Shown here piece by piece: positions 27,843-32,610 of a stretch of 32,610 nt of DNA; within the stretch, counting starts at the first letter, position 1, and each line of letters begins with the position of its first letter. Source of the stretch: an uncultured Acidimicrobiales bacterium (GTDB lineage Bacteria; Actinomycetota; Acidimicrobiia; Acidimicrobiales; SHLQ01). The stretch lies in the NCBI GenBank assembly GCA_938084885.1, contig CALKGG010000077.1, positions 1 to 32,610 of the forward strand, written 5' to 3'. The position numbers and the translations under genes were made by a program. Below the pieces are notes generated by a model. That model was not told the DNA's origin and ran no database searches. It saw only the letters and a list, made by a program, of their open reading frames with translations.

Positions 27843-28655
27843 CTAGGCGCCGAGGAGTCCGCTTGGGGTTGCCACAGAAGCCGAAGGAAGCTCCCGTCGG
27901 TTTGCCGAGATTCGCATCGCAAGAAACCCGAGGCCAAGCGCCAACGTCGATCCGCCGAGAAAGCCGAACACGGCACGCCGAGCTGGCAACGGGCCGACCG
28001 GGTCGCTGAGCACAAACGGCTCGGTTACCAGCCGAGGGACAAGCTTCTCCTCACCGAAGATCGATCGCTGCACGATCGCCAGTCGAACCGAATCGACTGA
28101 TGCCCGAATCGCAGCTTTCTCTTGAAGCAGCGCCGTCAACTCGACCGAGGCCCCAAAGCCCATCAACTCTTCGATCTCCGCTTCGACTATTGCCAACTCC
28201 TCAACAAGCTCAGCCTCAAGTAGCCGGTAGGCTTCCGCGGCGGGGTTCGGTTCCGACGCTGCCACCTCGGCTTGGGCGAGGTATCGACGAGTCACCGACT
28301 CGACTACCGAGAGTGCGACCACCGGGTCAGCGTCGACAAACTCGAATTGCAAAATCTGGGTGCCAGGGATCTGACCTGCTTGCCATTTCGCTTCGAAATG
28401 GTCAATAGCAATGTTGTGAGCAGCAGCGACGGGCTCCAACAAGGTCCGACTATTCACGCGCTCAGACTCGGTCTCGACCCAACTCGAGCCGGCGTACTGC
28501 ACTTGCGAGCGCGCCCCAAAGACCTCTGGCCCTGCGTCAGCGAGCAGGTAGGTCAGCTGGGTACACATCAGGACGATTACGATTGCACCGAGCCCGATGG
28601 CGACGAGTAATGAAGGTTCGGGGCGGGTCCGAAAAACAGGCTCAAGGGGCTCCAT
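27843..28655 (-). CDS. Wzz-like chain-length determinant / tyrosine-kinase modulator
   Basis: 270 residues from ATG 28655 (277 if GTG 28676 is used). A transmembrane helix near the N-terminus (LLVAIGLGAIVIVLMCTQLT), an extracytoplasmic region with Wzz features (SRTLLEPVAAAHNI, QILQFEFVDADPVVALSVV) and a coiled coil (LLEAELVEELAIVEAEIEEL), and a second helix near the C-terminus (VFGFLGGSTLALGLGFLAM). This is the layout of proteins that set polysaccharide chain length or activate a capsular tyrosine kinase. No kinase or Wzx/Wzy gene is nearby, so this is an orphan copy. The upstream GTG would put the start inside an inverted repeat. Confidence 0.8.
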   Translation of the reverse strand: MEPLEPVFRTRPEPSLLVAIGLGAIVIVLMCTQLTYLLADAGPEVFGARSQVQYAGSSWVETESERVNSRTLLEPVAAAHNIAIDHFEAKWQAGQIPGTQILQFEFVDADPVVALSVVESVTRRYLAQAEVAASEPNPAAEAYRLLEAELVEELAIVEAEIEELMGFGASVELTALLQEKAAIRASVDSVRLAIVQRSIFGEEKLVPRLVTEPFVLSDPVGPLPARRAVFGFLGGSTLALGLGFLAMRISANRRELPSASVATPSGLLGA

Positions 28656-28673
28656 GAGCCCAGTGTGCACAGC

Positions 28674-28702
28674 CACCGAACCTCGGTCGTCAAGGTTCGG
28701 TG
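28674..28702. promoter_or_regulatory. Perfect 10-bp inverted repeat, N9 spacing
   Basis: CACCGAACCT-N9-AGGTTCGGTG, upstream of the Wzz-like gene and about 70 bases before the oxygenase gene. It may be a repressor operator for either divergent gene or an mRNA hairpin. Confidence 0.6.
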
Positions 28703-28726: not shown

Positions 28727-28750
28727 GTCCAGTACTGGACGAACGTCCAG
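28727..28750 (+). promoter_or_regulatory. Overlapping palindromes, likely operator of the catabolic operon
   Basis: A perfect 14-bp palindrome, GTCCAGTACTGGAC (28727-28740), is followed by a third half-site (CTGGAC-GAAC-GTCCAG, 28735-28750). The array GTCCAG/CTGGAC/GTCCAG ends 21 bases before the first gene, where a repressor or activator would act. The binding protein is not encoded in the window. Confidence 0.65.
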
Positions 28751-28771: not shown

Positions 28772-29653
28772 GTGTCAGAAGCTGCCCGAGCCACCGCGCA
28801 ATCGATCGACGATCTCGAAGCGTTGATCGACCTCGATACCTATCCAATCCACCAACTCGACTCCCCGACCCGGTCGGACCTCGTCGCCGAGACTCGCACA
28901 CAAATGGACGCTGTCGGCTGTTGTCGAATCTCCAACTTCATCCGCCCCGAAGCCGTGAATACCATGCTCGGTGAAGCGGAACGACTAACACCGGAAACGT
29001 TCTGGGCCGAGCAGGACCACAACCCATATGCTTCGCCGGAAGACCCAACACTCCCAGCAACACATCCTCGCAATACCCTCCAAAAGCGCATGAGCGGGTT
29101 TATCAACTCCGATCTGCTTGGCCCCGCCTCACCGCTTAATCGCATCTACGACTCCAACGTCATGACCCATTTCATCTGGCAATGTCTGGGAACACCCAAG
29201 CCGATCTACCAGTGGGCCGATCCGCTCGGACGCAACCCCTATGGCGTGATGCAGACCGACCACTACTTCCCGTGGCACTTCGACGGCAACGAGTTCACGG
29301 TCAGCATCCTCCTGCAGCGCCCCGACCAAGGTGGCGTCTTCGAATATGTACCCGACATCCGAAGTCCGGACGCCGAAAACTTCGAAAAGGTGCAGTACAT
29401 CCTCGAAGGCGGCCGGGAAGGCGTGTTCGAACTCGACCTACAACCGGCCGATCTACAGCTATTCAAGGGCCGCTTCTCCCTGCACCGGGTCACTCGCATC
29501 GTCGGGCCGACCGCCCGCTACATCGCCCTGCCGACCTACGTGCACGACCCGTACCGTATGAACCGGCCACACCACGCAATCACTTACTACGGCCGGGCCA
29601 CGCCGCTGCACTACGAACGCGAGATGGTGCTCGTCGACGGACTGGTCGACTGA
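28772..29653 (+). CDS. 2-oxoglutarate/Fe(II)-dependent oxygenase
   Basis: 293 residues. The iron triad is visible as His169-x-Asp171 (FPWHFDGNEF) and His238 (KGRFSLHRVT), with Arg249 a fitting 2-oxoglutarate anchor. The GGVFEYVPDIRS and DLQLFKGRFSLHRV segments resemble the group containing amino-acid hydroxylases and BesD-like halogenases (recalled similarity, not a search). Asp171 is present, which favours hydroxylation over halogenation. It starts at GTG with no clear ribosome site, so the transcript may be leaderless. It is the first gene of a four-gene plus-strand operon and may unmask the substrate, for instance by hydroxylation or demethylation. The substrate is unknown. Confidence 0.82.
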   Translation: MSEAARATAQSIDDLEALIDLDTYPIHQLDSPTRSDLVAETRTQMDAVGCCRISNFIRPEAVNTMLGEAERLTPETFWAEQDHNPYASPEDPTLPATHPRNTLQKRMSGFINSDLLGPASPLNRIYDSNVMTHFIWQCLGTPKPIYQWADPLGRNPYGVMQTDHYFPWHFDGNEFTVSILLQRPDQGGVFEYVPDIRSPDAENFEKVQYILEGGREGVFELDLQPADLQLFKGRFSLHRVTRIVGPTARYIALPTYVHDPYRMNRPHHAITYYGRATPLHYEREMVLVDGLVD

Positions 29654-29654
29654 G

Positions 29655-30602
29655 GTGTCAGAGCCACCCCGTGTAGCCGTCATCGGTCTCGGAAACATCG
29701 GCGGAGGTGTCGCCGCAAACCTGCTTCGAGCCGGCTACCCCGTGACCGTGGTTGATCTCGACAACGAAAAGGTCAACGCCCTCGTTGCGCTCGGCGGTGT
29801 GGCCAACTCCACGGCCGAAGCGGCCGCAGCCACCGCCGACATCGTGTTCACCTCGCTACCCGGACCCAAACACATCGCTGCCGTTGGACTAGGCGATGGC
29901 CGCAGCGCCGGCGTCATCGCGACGATGAAACCAGGCTCGATTTGGGTCGAGCTATCGACCAACGATCTCGAAACGGCGCGCCAGTTGTATCAACCAGCAG
30001 CCGAGGCCAGCGTCAGCATCGTCGACGCGCCGGTCTCGGGTGGCCCGGAGGGGGCACAGGCCGGCACGCTATCGATCTATGTAGGCGCCAACGATGCCGA
30101 CTTCGACCGCATCCGACCGTTGCTCGACGTCATTGGTACGCACGTGACCCACCTGGGTCCCCGAGGCGCGGGGATCGTGGCAAAGATCGCCCAAGTCACG
30201 CTCTGCTACACACAGACCATCACGCTCATCGAAGCACTGCTGCTGGGCGTGAAGGGCGGCGTGCAACCCGAGGTCATGCTCGAACTGATTCAGAACAGCG
30301 CAGGAAGCAGTTATGTGGCCGAAACCTATGGTCCCGAAATCCTGACAGGCACCTACGACGCTTCGTTCCCGATCGGCCATGCGGCGAAAGACATGCGCCT
30401 GGCGATGAGCTTGGCGAACAGCGTCGGGGCCGACCTCGCGAACATGGCCCGAGTCGCCGAACTCTACGAACGAGCAGAAGCAACGTTCGGCGCCGCTGCG
30501 CCGCACTTACTCGTTGCACAGATGATCGAGCAGCAGAACAGCCTTATCCTGCACCGAAGAGCAGCGAACCAATCACCAGCCGACAATCCGGAGCCAACGT
30601 GA
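29655..30602 (+). CDS. 3-hydroxyisobutyrate-dehydrogenase-family NAD(P) oxidoreductase
   Basis: 315 residues of the beta-hydroxyacid dehydrogenase family. Rossmann motif IGLGNIGGGVAANLLRAG at 10-27, substrate-binding VDAPVSGGPEGAQAGTL at about 123-139, catalytic Lys177 in GAGIVAKIAQVT, and cofactor-side HAAKDMRLAM. The Asn usually three residues after the Lys is Gln180, which may alter substrate choice. It would oxidise a 3-hydroxy acid or sugar-acid derivative, or run in reverse. It starts at GTG one base after the oxygenase stop and ends overlapping the aldolase gene. Confidence 0.9.
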   Translation: MSEPPRVAVIGLGNIGGGVAANLLRAGYPVTVVDLDNEKVNALVALGGVANSTAEAAAATADIVFTSLPGPKHIAAVGLGDGRSAGVIATMKPGSIWVELSTNDLETARQLYQPAAEASVSIVDAPVSGGPEGAQAGTLSIYVGANDADFDRIRPLLDVIGTHVTHLGPRGAGIVAKIAQVTLCYTQTITLIEALLLGVKGGVQPEVMLELIQNSAGSSYVAETYGPEILTGTYDASFPIGHAAKDMRLAMSLANSVGADLANMARVAELYERAEATFGAAAPHLLVAQMIEQQNSLILHRRAANQSPADNPEPT

Positions 30603-31381
30603 CCAGCACGCACAACAAAGAAGTAACCAGCGACGACTTCGCCGCCGCAAACGCTGGGAGTTTCACCGGCGACGAATGGCAGGCCCGAGTCGACCTCGCT
30701 GCGCTGTACCGTCTGTCGGCTCACTTCGGCTACGACGACACCGTGTGGAACCACATCACCATGCGTGTGCCGGGCACCGACCACGACTTTTTTCTCAACA
30801 AATTCGGGCTCCTCTATAACGAGGTCACCGCGTCGAACCTCATCAAGGTCGACAGCGACGGCAATGTGCTCGAGGGGCCCGCCGACGTCAACACCGCAGG
30901 CTTTGTCATCCACTCGGCGATTCACAATGACTTTCCAAAATGGAAGGTCGTCTTCCACGCCCATGTTCCCGACATACTCGCAATCACCGCGTTAAAGGAT
31001 GGGTTTCAACACATCGTCCAAGACACGTCGATGCTGTACGGCGAGGTTGGCTATCACGACTGGGAAGGATTGTCGCTCACGCTCGAAGAGCGCGAACGTC
31101 TGGCGGCAAACATGGAAGGCAACCGAATGCTCATCATGCGCAACCACGGATTTCTCGCCGTGGGTGAAACCGCCGGCGAGGCATTCATGGTGATGCACTA
31201 TTTCGTCCGGGGTTGCCGGGCGCTGTTGGCAGCGAAGGCGACAGGGATGGAAATCGACCCGGGCCCGAAAGATATTTGGGAATTGTCCAAGCGGCAGTAC
31301 GACCACTTTCCCCTTGGGGTCAATGAGTGGCCAGCGCTACTGCGAATGCTCGACCAACTCGACCCCGGATACAAGTCTTGA
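30599..31381 (+). CDS. Class II aldolase/adducin-family protein
   Basis: 260 residues from GTG 30599, which shares four bases (GTGA) with the previous stop; longer upstream starts lie inside the dehydrogenase gene. Zinc ligands His120 and His122 (VVFHAHVPD) and His183 (MRNHGFLAVG) are in place, with the family segments TVWNHITMRVPG and NKFGLLYNEVTASNLIKVD. Relatives are fuculose-phosphate aldolases, ribulose-phosphate epimerases and oxo-tetronate-phosphate decarboxylases. No sugar kinase accompanies it here, so a non-phosphorylated substrate is possible. Confidence 0.9.
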   Translation: MTSTHNKEVTSDDFAAANAGSFTGDEWQARVDLAALYRLSAHFGYDDTVWNHITMRVPGTDHDFFLNKFGLLYNEVTASNLIKVDSDGNVLEGPADVNTAGFVIHSAIHNDFPKWKVVFHAHVPDILAITALKDGFQHIVQDTSMLYGEVGYHDWEGLSLTLEERERLAANMEGNRMLIMRNHGFLAVGETAGEAFMVMHYFVRGCRALLAAKATGMEIDPGPKDIWELSKRQYDHFPLGVNEWPALLRMLDQLDPGYKS

Positions 31382-32466
31382 GCACAGTCGTTCGGCTCGA
31401 CACGACGCTCGTCAACATTCCGTTTGCGAAGCCGCTCGGCACAGCGATTCACGCAATGACGTCTGCCGGATGTGTTCTGGTCGAGATCGAAACAGACGAT
31501 GGTGTTGTGGGCCAAGGGTACGTCTTCGTGATCAACGGCGACCGGCTCGCAGCGTTCGACGAGACAATCCGAGGCTTCAGGCCCTTCGTGGTTGGCCGAA
31601 GCGTGCACGAAACCGAAGGCATCTGGCATTCGATCTGGCGGGCGATCAACCCCACGGGGCACAAGGGCATCACGATTTCGGCGCTATCGGCAATCGATGT
31701 TGCCTGCTGGGACGCAGCTTCGAAGCTGGCGGGCCTGCCTCTCTACCGCATGTTCGGCGCCTGCCGCGAGGAGATCGATACGTACGCGAGTTCAGGCCTT
31801 TGGCTCACTGCATCCGTCGAAGAACTCGTCACCGAGGCTCAGGCATACCTCAACCAAGGCTTCACCGCCATAAAGCTCCGGATTGGCAGCGATTCGCCTG
31901 ACACCGACGTCGCCCGGGTTCGGGCGGTTCGCGAAGCGGTAGGAGACCAGATCAGTCTTCTGGTCGATGCCAACCAGAAGTTCACCACCAAAGAGGCGAT
32001 ACGGCTTGGACGTCGGCTCGAAGAGTTCGGCCTGGGCTGGATCGAGGAACCTGTCGCGGCAGGCGACCTTGCGGGGCAAGCCAGGGTCACTGCCGCACTA
32101 GATACGCCGGTCGCTTCAGGCGAGACCGAGTACACCCGGTTCGGTATGCAAGCGATGATCGACGCAACTTCGGCCGACATTTTAATGCCCGATCTCCAAC
32201 GAATGGGCGGCTACAGCGAGTTCCGCAAGGCGGCCGCAGCCGCAGCCGCTAACCATGTGCCGGTTTCGAGCCACTTCTTTACCGAACACAGCCTTTCGCT
32301 AGCTGGCTCGCTCGATAACTGCATATCGGTCGAGCACATCGACTGGTTCGCTCCCCTCTTCAACGAGGACATCGAACTACGCGCTGGCAAGCTACAAATG
32401 CCCGATCGCCCAGGCACCGGCTTCACCATCAACCCGTCAGCGGCAGCCCACTTCGCCGCCAGCTAA
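31378..32466 (+). CDS. Enolase-superfamily enzyme, mandelate racemase type
   Basis: 362 residues from TTG 31378, overlapping the aldolase stop by 4 bases (TTGA); a GTG at 31327 would lie inside it. Catalytic Lys166-x-Arg168 (AIKLRIG), metal ligands Asp197 (VDANQ), Glu223 (WIEEP) and Glu249 (SGETEY), the Asp272/His299 dyad (MPDLQRMGG; VSSHFF) and Glu319 are all present. The His-Asp dyad places it with mandelate racemase and acid-sugar dehydratases rather than muconate cycloisomerases. It probably dehydrates or racemises a hydroxy-acid intermediate. Last gene of the operon, 38 bases before an IS30-type transposase end. Confidence 0.9.
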   Translation: MSTVVRLDTTLVNIPFAKPLGTAIHAMTSAGCVLVEIETDDGVVGQGYVFVINGDRLAAFDETIRGFRPFVVGRSVHETEGIWHSIWRAINPTGHKGITISALSAIDVACWDAASKLAGLPLYRMFGACREEIDTYASSGLWLTASVEELVTEAQAYLNQGFTAIKLRIGSDSPDTDVARVRAVREAVGDQISLLVDANQKFTTKEAIRLGRRLEEFGLGWIEEPVAAGDLAGQARVTAALDTPVASGETEYTRFGMQAMIDATSADILMPDLQRMGGYSEFRKAAAAAAANHVPVSSHFFTEHSLSLAGSLDNCISVEHIDWFAPLFNEDIELRAGKLQMPDRPGTGFTINPSAAAHFAAS

Positions 32467-32504
32467 CCAAAGTAAGAACGCGGGGTCTGGGTGGGTTCAG
32501 TCGG

Positions 32505-32610
32505 TCATCGTGACAGGTGTTGAGTGTAGATGTCGTTTGAGGTCTTCCAGTTGAGGCTGCGTCTTGGTGTGGTGTTGAGTCGGGTTTCGATGGCTTGTAG
32601 TCGGTGTGTG
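32505..32610 (-). mobile_element. IS30-type transposase, 3' end (cut by window edge)
   Basis: On the minus strand the last 34 codons before a TGA at 32507-32505 read THRLQAIETRLNTTPRRSLN then WKTSNDIYTQHLSR. The LNTTPRRSLNWKTSNDIY pattern is the C-terminal LNxRPRKxLxWxTPxE segment of IS30-family transposases. The rest lies beyond the window. The IS terminus would be expected in 32467-32504, but with one end only its inverted repeat cannot be defined. Confidence 0.75.

Follow-up and report, generated by a model that had tools for sequence, protein, structure and literature searches.

A candidate onium-osmolyte operon opening with a BesD/HalD-fold oxygenase in an uncultured Acidimicrobiales bacterium

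The operon described here lies near the end of contig CALKGG010000077.1 of an uncultured Acidimicrobiales bacterium (GenBank assembly GCA_938084885.1). The window that we analysed is this entire contig (contig 77; 32,610 nucleotides) of a draft genome of 3.37 Mb that is 93% complete, and its closest, near-identical relatives are likewise uncultured Acidimicrobiales. Four genes, called OXY, DH, ALD and ENO hereafter (Table 1), encode an oxygenase, a dehydrogenase, an aldolase-fold protein and an enolase. A single base (29654) separates OXY from DH, DH and ALD share the bases GTGA, and ALD and ENO share TTGA, which gives spacings of +1, -4 and -4 bases. The genes, coordinates and families of the original prediction, which was made from the sequence alone, are borne out by the open reading frame coordinates and the Pfam matches. 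Its one-base gap is also correct, whereas the overlaps that it put at 'three-base scale' are both of four bases. That the four genes are made together, as it proposed, agrees with the overlapping layout and with the conservation of the same set elsewhere. It knew of no described pathway with this exact set, and neither did we find a published one in the open-access literature. The families, and the type of pathway that we propose below, onium-osmolyte catabolism, are known; it is the combination of enzymes that appears to be undescribed.

Table 1. Coordinates of the operon genes and associated features in the window.
Feature	Position	Strand	Description
Palindrome TGGACGAACGTCCA	28736-28749		Probable TetR-type operator, separated from the OXY start codon by 22 nt
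OXY	28772-29653	+	2-oxoglutarate/Fe(II) (2OG-Fe(II)) oxygenase, GTG start
DH	29655-30602	+	3-Hydroxyisobutyrate-dehydrogenase-family (beta-hydroxyacid) dehydrogenase, GTG start
ALD	30599-31381	+	Class II aldolase/adducin-fold metalloenzyme, NF005451 subfamily, GTG start
ENO	31378-32466	+	Mandelate-racemase-subgroup enolase, TTG start
Foreign insertion (probable)	32490-32610		Runs to the contig end; sets the downstream limit of the operon

The set is deeply conserved. A scan for OXY over 84,980 species genomes yielded 45 loci, 28 in Acidimicrobiales and 17 in Pelagibacteraceae (SAR11). Gene order was counted by hand at 27 Acidimicrobiales loci (L005-L031), some of which end at contig edges: OXY is followed by DH in 20, by ALD in 18 and by ENO in 12 of them, with constant order and strand. 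At all 17 SAR11 loci ALD comes after OXY, with DH in between at ten. A chance grouping is excluded because the gene order recurs across two phyla. Further afield, an alphaproteobacterial locus has the arrangement ENO-LysR diverging from OXY-DH-ALD-SDR-second enolase-SMR-GhrA, and on the Pseudomonas plasmid pMPC6-328K the four genes OXY, ENO, DH and ALD lie inside 19 kb. The four families are thus adjacent at 12 Acidimicrobiales loci and elsewhere, which disposes of the objection, foreseen in the original prediction, that close homologues might never be neighbours in other genomes. Orthologues of ALD are rare (E<=1e-75), being present in two of 385 alphaproteobacterial and one of 396 actinobacterial genomes sampled. 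The correlation of pairwise distances over all loci is high between OXY and DH (r 0.94) and between OXY and ALD (r 0.92), which partly reflects the split between SAR11 and Acidimicrobiales; within Acidimicrobiales these coefficients are only 0.53-0.55. The correlation of ENO with OXY is lower (0.33-0.50).

OXY has a single Pfam match, HalD (PF23169; E 3e-9, 37.1 bits for a gathering cut-off of 26), and matches no NCBIfam model; in the Pfam search it falls outside the BBOX/TMLH family. An AlphaFold2 model built from 22 homologues (pLDDT 90.5) was compared with the PDB using Foldseek. The best 41 matches, at 13-18% identity, are all HalD, BesD, HalB, HalA or the BesD-family lysine hydroxylase, and the top ones are HalD 7u6h, BesD 6nie and the lysine hydroxylase 7jsd (probability 1.00), with a Foldseek E-value of 2e-14 and a TM score of about 0.6-0.65. 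With a profile score above the gathering cut-off and the same fold, OXY belongs to the hydroxylase branch of the BesD/HalD fold family. All 89 aligned homologues have the iron triad H169-x-D171...H238, and 88 of them have R249. HalD aligns as HWG where OXY has its HxD motif, and the halogenases of this family have Gly at the position of the iron-ligand carboxylate (PMC13244439). As this ligand, absent from the halogenases, is present in OXY, the enzyme should hydroxylate. OXY is a distant, hydroxylase-type (HxD...H) relative of BesD, HalD and 7jsd, which are halogenases or hydroxylases of lysine. A second OXY clade (OXY2; 35-39% identical) was found at L002/L079 (contig 26), L059-L071, L077, L081 and L082. 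It often adjoins a beta-hydroxyacid dehydrogenase of its own, forming a parallel and separate pair in the same genomes.

As for DH, it matches NAD_binding_2 (PF03446) and NAD_binding_11 (PF14833), and its catalytic Lys, K177, is conserved in 61 of 61 homologues; both domains and the Lys are those of the 3-hydroxyisobutyrate dehydrogenase family. Four residues further on, at what we take to be the position of the catalytic Asn in the 3-hydroxyisobutyrate dehydrogenase prototype, 45 of the 61 homologues, DH of the window included, have Val (V181), and the paralogues linked to OXY2 retain the Asn. DH scores under the cut-off of every named NCBIfam equivalog; the nearest named families are tartronate-semialdehyde reductase and threonate dehydrogenase. 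ALD matches PF00596 (E 1e-38) and scores above the cut-off of NF005451. Its metal-binding residues H120, H122 and H183 (H-x-H ... NHG), which are those of class II aldolases, are near-invariant. The position of the catalytic Glu of fuculose aldolase (FucA Glu73) is presumably that of N98, which is present in all operon members displayed and likewise in the aligned adducin and NovR sequences. Because N98 replaces the FucA Glu, as in adducin and NovR, 'aldolase' should be understood as a fold name only for ALD.

ENO matches PF13378 and PF02746 (MR_MLE N+C) and has the hallmarks of the mandelate racemase subgroup, namely the K-x-K/R motif (K166-x-R168), three carboxylate ligands (D197, E223 and E249), the Asp-His dyad (D272 and H299) and the terminal Glu (E319), all of which are conserved. 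The nearest solved structure is the L-talarate/galactarate dehydratase 2pp0, and the nearest named families are the talarate/galactarate and arabinonate dehydratases. ENO is under every named NCBIfam cut-off, and for the L-talarate/galactarate dehydratase model it falls far short, with 282 bits against a cut-off of 500. Dehydration of cis-3-hydroxyproline was considered and rejected, with ENO scoring 75 bits for HProlDhtase (NCBIfam cut-off 500) and AcnX lying outside the window operon. The earlier statement that all active-site residues are present therefore stands for the OXY triad and the ENO set; by comparison with the prototypes, it does not for DH (V181) or ALD (N98).

The palindrome upstream of OXY suggests how the operon may be controlled. 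Its strict form, TGGACGNNCGTCCA, occurs at two sites in the genome, at 28736-28749 of the window and at 15167-15180 of contig 41, each directly upstream of a copy of the operon. This count is no higher than (equal to) that of the reversed control, and the evidence thus resides in the position of the sites and not in their number. Sites resembling TGRACGNNCGTYCA, which differ from the strict form at no more than two bases, are found upstream of OXY at 24 of the 27 Acidimicrobiales loci, which are related and not independent (L005 is nearly identical to the window). They are mostly the sole such site of the locus and lie 36-133 nt 5' of the start of the OXY match. The relaxed TGRACGNNCGTYCA is a TetR-type box of a general kind, of which the family has many other examples; what is informative is the strict form together with its position. 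In many Acidimicrobiales loci a TetR gene diverges from OXY, and the member tested, that of L014, has a BetI-type C-terminus.

The second copy of the operon, at 15286-18310 of contig 41 (9287-12311 of L078), consists of a TetR gene diverging from an OXY remnant, followed by DH, ALD, ENO and an SDR gene. Compared with their window counterparts, DH, ALD and ENO of this copy are intact and 50%, 86% and 61% identical, respectively. Its OXY is without about 190 internal residues, among them the iron-binding motif, which would reflect either a genuine deletion or a fault in the assembly. No TetR gene adjoins the window locus, and the TetR of contig 41 is the natural candidate for a regulator acting in trans on the window operon.

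The neighbours of related sets give clues to the substrate, the strongest of which comes from annotated plasmids. The top four plasmid records for ENO are also the top four for ALD: one from Sulfitobacter SK012, two from plasmids of Mesorhizobium amorphae and one from Pseudomonas MPC6. Each of the four encodes an OpuAC-type ABC importer close to ENO. RnDmpX (7yle), whose structure was solved with dimethylsulfoniopropionate (DMSP) bound, shares 57% identity with the Mesorhizobium binding protein. The latter keeps W35, T64, W84, W152, Y200 and W202, with E113 replaced by Asp and A153 by Gly, and all five binding proteins that we examined retain the Trp and Tyr residues of the cage. SAR11 neighbours include a carnitine-dehydrogenase-like enzyme (353 bits for a cut-off of 414), a DddP-like M24 protein (383 bits for a cut-off of 600), a BKACE protein, a GbcA-like Rieske oxygenase and a formaldehyde-activating enzyme. 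On a rhodobacterial plasmid, a more distant OXY relative is clustered with an MttB-family methyltransferase, and the genome under study has two genes of the MttB family, which we count in favour of an onium substrate.

The importers, the BetI-type TetR and the carnitine-, BKACE-, Rieske- and DddP-like neighbours favour an onium zwitterion over a sugar acid, and so does the fold of OXY, whose nearest relatives act on cationic amino acids. With about even confidence, we propose that the operon of the window is under TetR control and serves the catabolism of a zwitterionic onium osmolyte, either a betaine (a quaternary ammonium carboxylate) or a sulfonium carboxylate resembling DMSP. The original prediction had envisaged an oxygenase-initiated breakdown of a hydroxylated or methylated acid or sugar acid. 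The co-transcribed, oxygenase-headed catabolic set stands; such an acid is no longer the first choice of substrate, since the neighbours suggest an onium zwitterion. OXY would hydroxylate the onium compound with O2, Fe(II) and 2-oxoglutarate, the most probable position being the carbon beta to the carboxylate or a neighbouring one. ENO would take the alpha proton and epimerise or dehydrate the hydroxylated acid, DH would oxidise the beta hydroxyl using NAD(P), and the metal enzyme ALD would cut the activated C-C bond, either in a retro-aldol reaction or by decarboxylation, yielding small central metabolites. This order of steps is our best guess from the enzyme families. It is tempting to go further and to suggest, with somewhat less than even confidence, that Acidimicrobiia, SAR11 and other proteobacteria have an undescribed onium-osmolyte pathway in common, whose first enzyme would belong to a hitherto unrecognised catabolic clade of hydroxylases with the BesD/HalD fold and whose last would be a metal-dependent enzyme of the aldolase fold without the usual catalytic Glu.

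Several observations weigh against an onium substrate in this bacterium. The window operon has no importer, and neither OpuAC nor BCCT proteins were found by searches of its 93% complete genome. The substrate would then enter through another carrier or arise inside the cell, and the missing importers make it less safe to extend the substrate class to this bacterium. The best-matching characterised relatives of ENO and DH use sugar acids or hydroxy acids devoid of an onium group. In a weak alignment, the acidic residues that HalD has upstream of its iron motif correspond to Gly-Arg-Asn in OXY, which does not favour lysine as the OXY substrate. Finally, the pathway is modular, as ENO is the fourth gene at none of the 17 SAR11 loci and the Mesorhizobium and Sulfitobacter sets have no OXY. 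As some sets keep the importer, ENO, DH and ALD without OXY, the simplest reading is that OXY makes a hydroxylated onium acid and that other species import this product ready-made.

Among the alternatives, the one that survives best, though we deem it unlikely, is a sugar acid, or a hydroxy or methyl acid, without an onium group. ENO would dehydrate a 2,3-dihydroxy acid, DH would oxidise a hydroxy acid and ALD would cleave it, with OXY making or trimming the hydroxylated acid. This is what the named families nearest to ENO and DH would suggest, it would agree with the lack of OpuAC and BCCT in the genome, and the GhrA and AcnX partners at other loci act on hydroxy acids. It does not readily explain why betaine- and DMSP-type importers adjoin orthologous ENO-DH-ALD sets at four plasmid loci or why SAR11 loci have carnitine- and betaine-type enzymes, and no sugar kinase was seen among the sets examined.

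A route of the carnitine family, for trimethyllysine, gamma-butyrobetaine or carnitine, appears still less probable. OXY would then be the trimethyllysine or gamma-butyrobetaine hydroxylase, DH or the carnitine dehydrogenase (CDH)-like enzyme would make a 3-keto acid, and BKACE or ALD would cleave it. The fold relatives of OXY do act on lysine or ornithine, SAR11 has OXY-OXY-ALD-carnitine-dehydrogenase-like arrangements, and BKACE adjoins OXY in L044 and is nearby in L047. An Arctic SAR11 island reported in 2025 also encodes, by its description, a class II aldolase, HADH, a 3-hydroxyisobutyrate dehydrogenase, CDH, BKACE and two BBOX genes, along with betaine transport (PMC12421898). However, the CDH-like protein scores under the named cut-off, CDH and BKACE lie outside the window operon and the core set, OXY is not of the BBOX/TMLH family, and DmpX, the nearest characterised binding protein, reportedly hardly binds carnitine (PMC10030565). 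The breakdown of betaine-lipid headgroups (DGTS/DGTA) was also considered, and our search of the open-access literature gave nothing bearing on it.

As for OXY being a halogenase or a biosynthetic tailoring enzyme in a small natural-product cluster, its sole Pfam match and its nearest folds would point that way, but the idea is highly improbable: the invariant iron-ligand Asp, in place of the H-x-G/A motif of PF23169 halogenases, argues against a halogenase, the BesD family is known to include a lysine hydroxylase, and the partners of OXY are catabolic families linked to importers.

If an onium osmolyte is indeed the substrate, the operon would supply a catabolic route for a methylated osmolyte that has so far been missing, both in uncultured Acidimicrobiales and in SAR11, a group that ranks with the most abundant bacteria of the sea. 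A clade of halogenase-fold oxygenases hitherto known by fold only would also gain a function. The substrate could be found by growth screens in strains whose plasmids have been sequenced, namely Mesorhizobium amorphae CCNWGS0123, Sulfitobacter sp. SK012 and Pseudomonas sp. MPC6.

Other features of the window and of the related loci deserve mention. Upstream of OXY, a gene of an unclassified family (27843-28676) has the opposite orientation, and a perfect 10-nt inverted repeat, CACCGAACCT/AGGTTCGGTG, with a 9-nt loop (28674-28702) is found at the start of this divergent gene. At the other end, the window and its sister locus L005 are 99.8% identical through position 32489 and unrelated thereafter, with the break 24 bp past the ENO stop codon. 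The foreign sequence is present only once in the assembly and is probably the end of an inserted element; a Pfam search gave it no match, and we leave it unnamed despite a resemblance, in a hand translation, to the end of an IS30-type transposase. In SAR11 (L032-L048), a protein of the FrhB/FdhB family (F420 hydrogenase beta-like) is encoded directly or closely after ALD. It recurs near OXY outside SAR11 too (L013 and L085), and in the SAR11 locus L038 a different enolase-family gene lies 3' of FrhB. Aconitase X and an SDR protein form a recurring module at OXY loci (L015, L016, L022-L025 and L085), to which the Acidimicrobiales members add an arylmalonate-decarboxylase-like protein and sometimes Sulfotransferase_5.

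The operon can be compared with several known systems. The L-threonate and tetronate pathways (LtnD-OtnI-OtnK-OtnC) likewise have a beta-hydroxyacid dehydrogenase beside a class II aldolase-fold protein. By contrast, the window operon adds an oxygenase and an enolase, and neither it nor the annotated neighbours at the plasmid loci include a kinase or isomerase, in agreement with the kinase absence noted in the original prediction. Together with the score of DH, which is far under the L-threonate dehydrogenase model, this rules out membership in those pathways. With the carnitine pathway through CDH and BKACE, the link is a CDH-like gene and BKACE in some SAR11 relatives of the operon; the window operon has no CDH, BKACE or thioesterase, and its oxygenase is of a different family from BBOX. 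The aldolase and dehydrogenase of the Arctic SAR11 island are likened to ALD and DH by description only. OpuAC importers adjoin the orthologous ENO-DH-ALD sets of Mesorhizobium, Sulfitobacter and Pseudomonas, and the binding protein of the Mesorhizobium one resembles that of the DMSP importer DmpXWV; the genome that harbours the window has no such importer. DmpXWV itself is reported to lie apart from the known genes of DMSP catabolism (PMC10030565). With 2pp0 and the other enzymes of the mandelate racemase subgroup, ENO shares the K-x-(K/R) motif, the D-E-E ligands, the Asp-His dyad and the terminal Glu, but its own motif is K-x-R rather than K-x-K. Finally, OXY resembles the BesD, HalD and HalB halogenases and the lysine hydroxylase 7jsd in fold and in its PF23169 match, and its HxD triad is as in the hydroxylase branch represented by 7jsd. 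It is only 13-17% identical to them and longer (293 aa, compared with about 255 aa), and it is tied to a catabolic dehydrogenase/aldolase set and not to biosynthesis.

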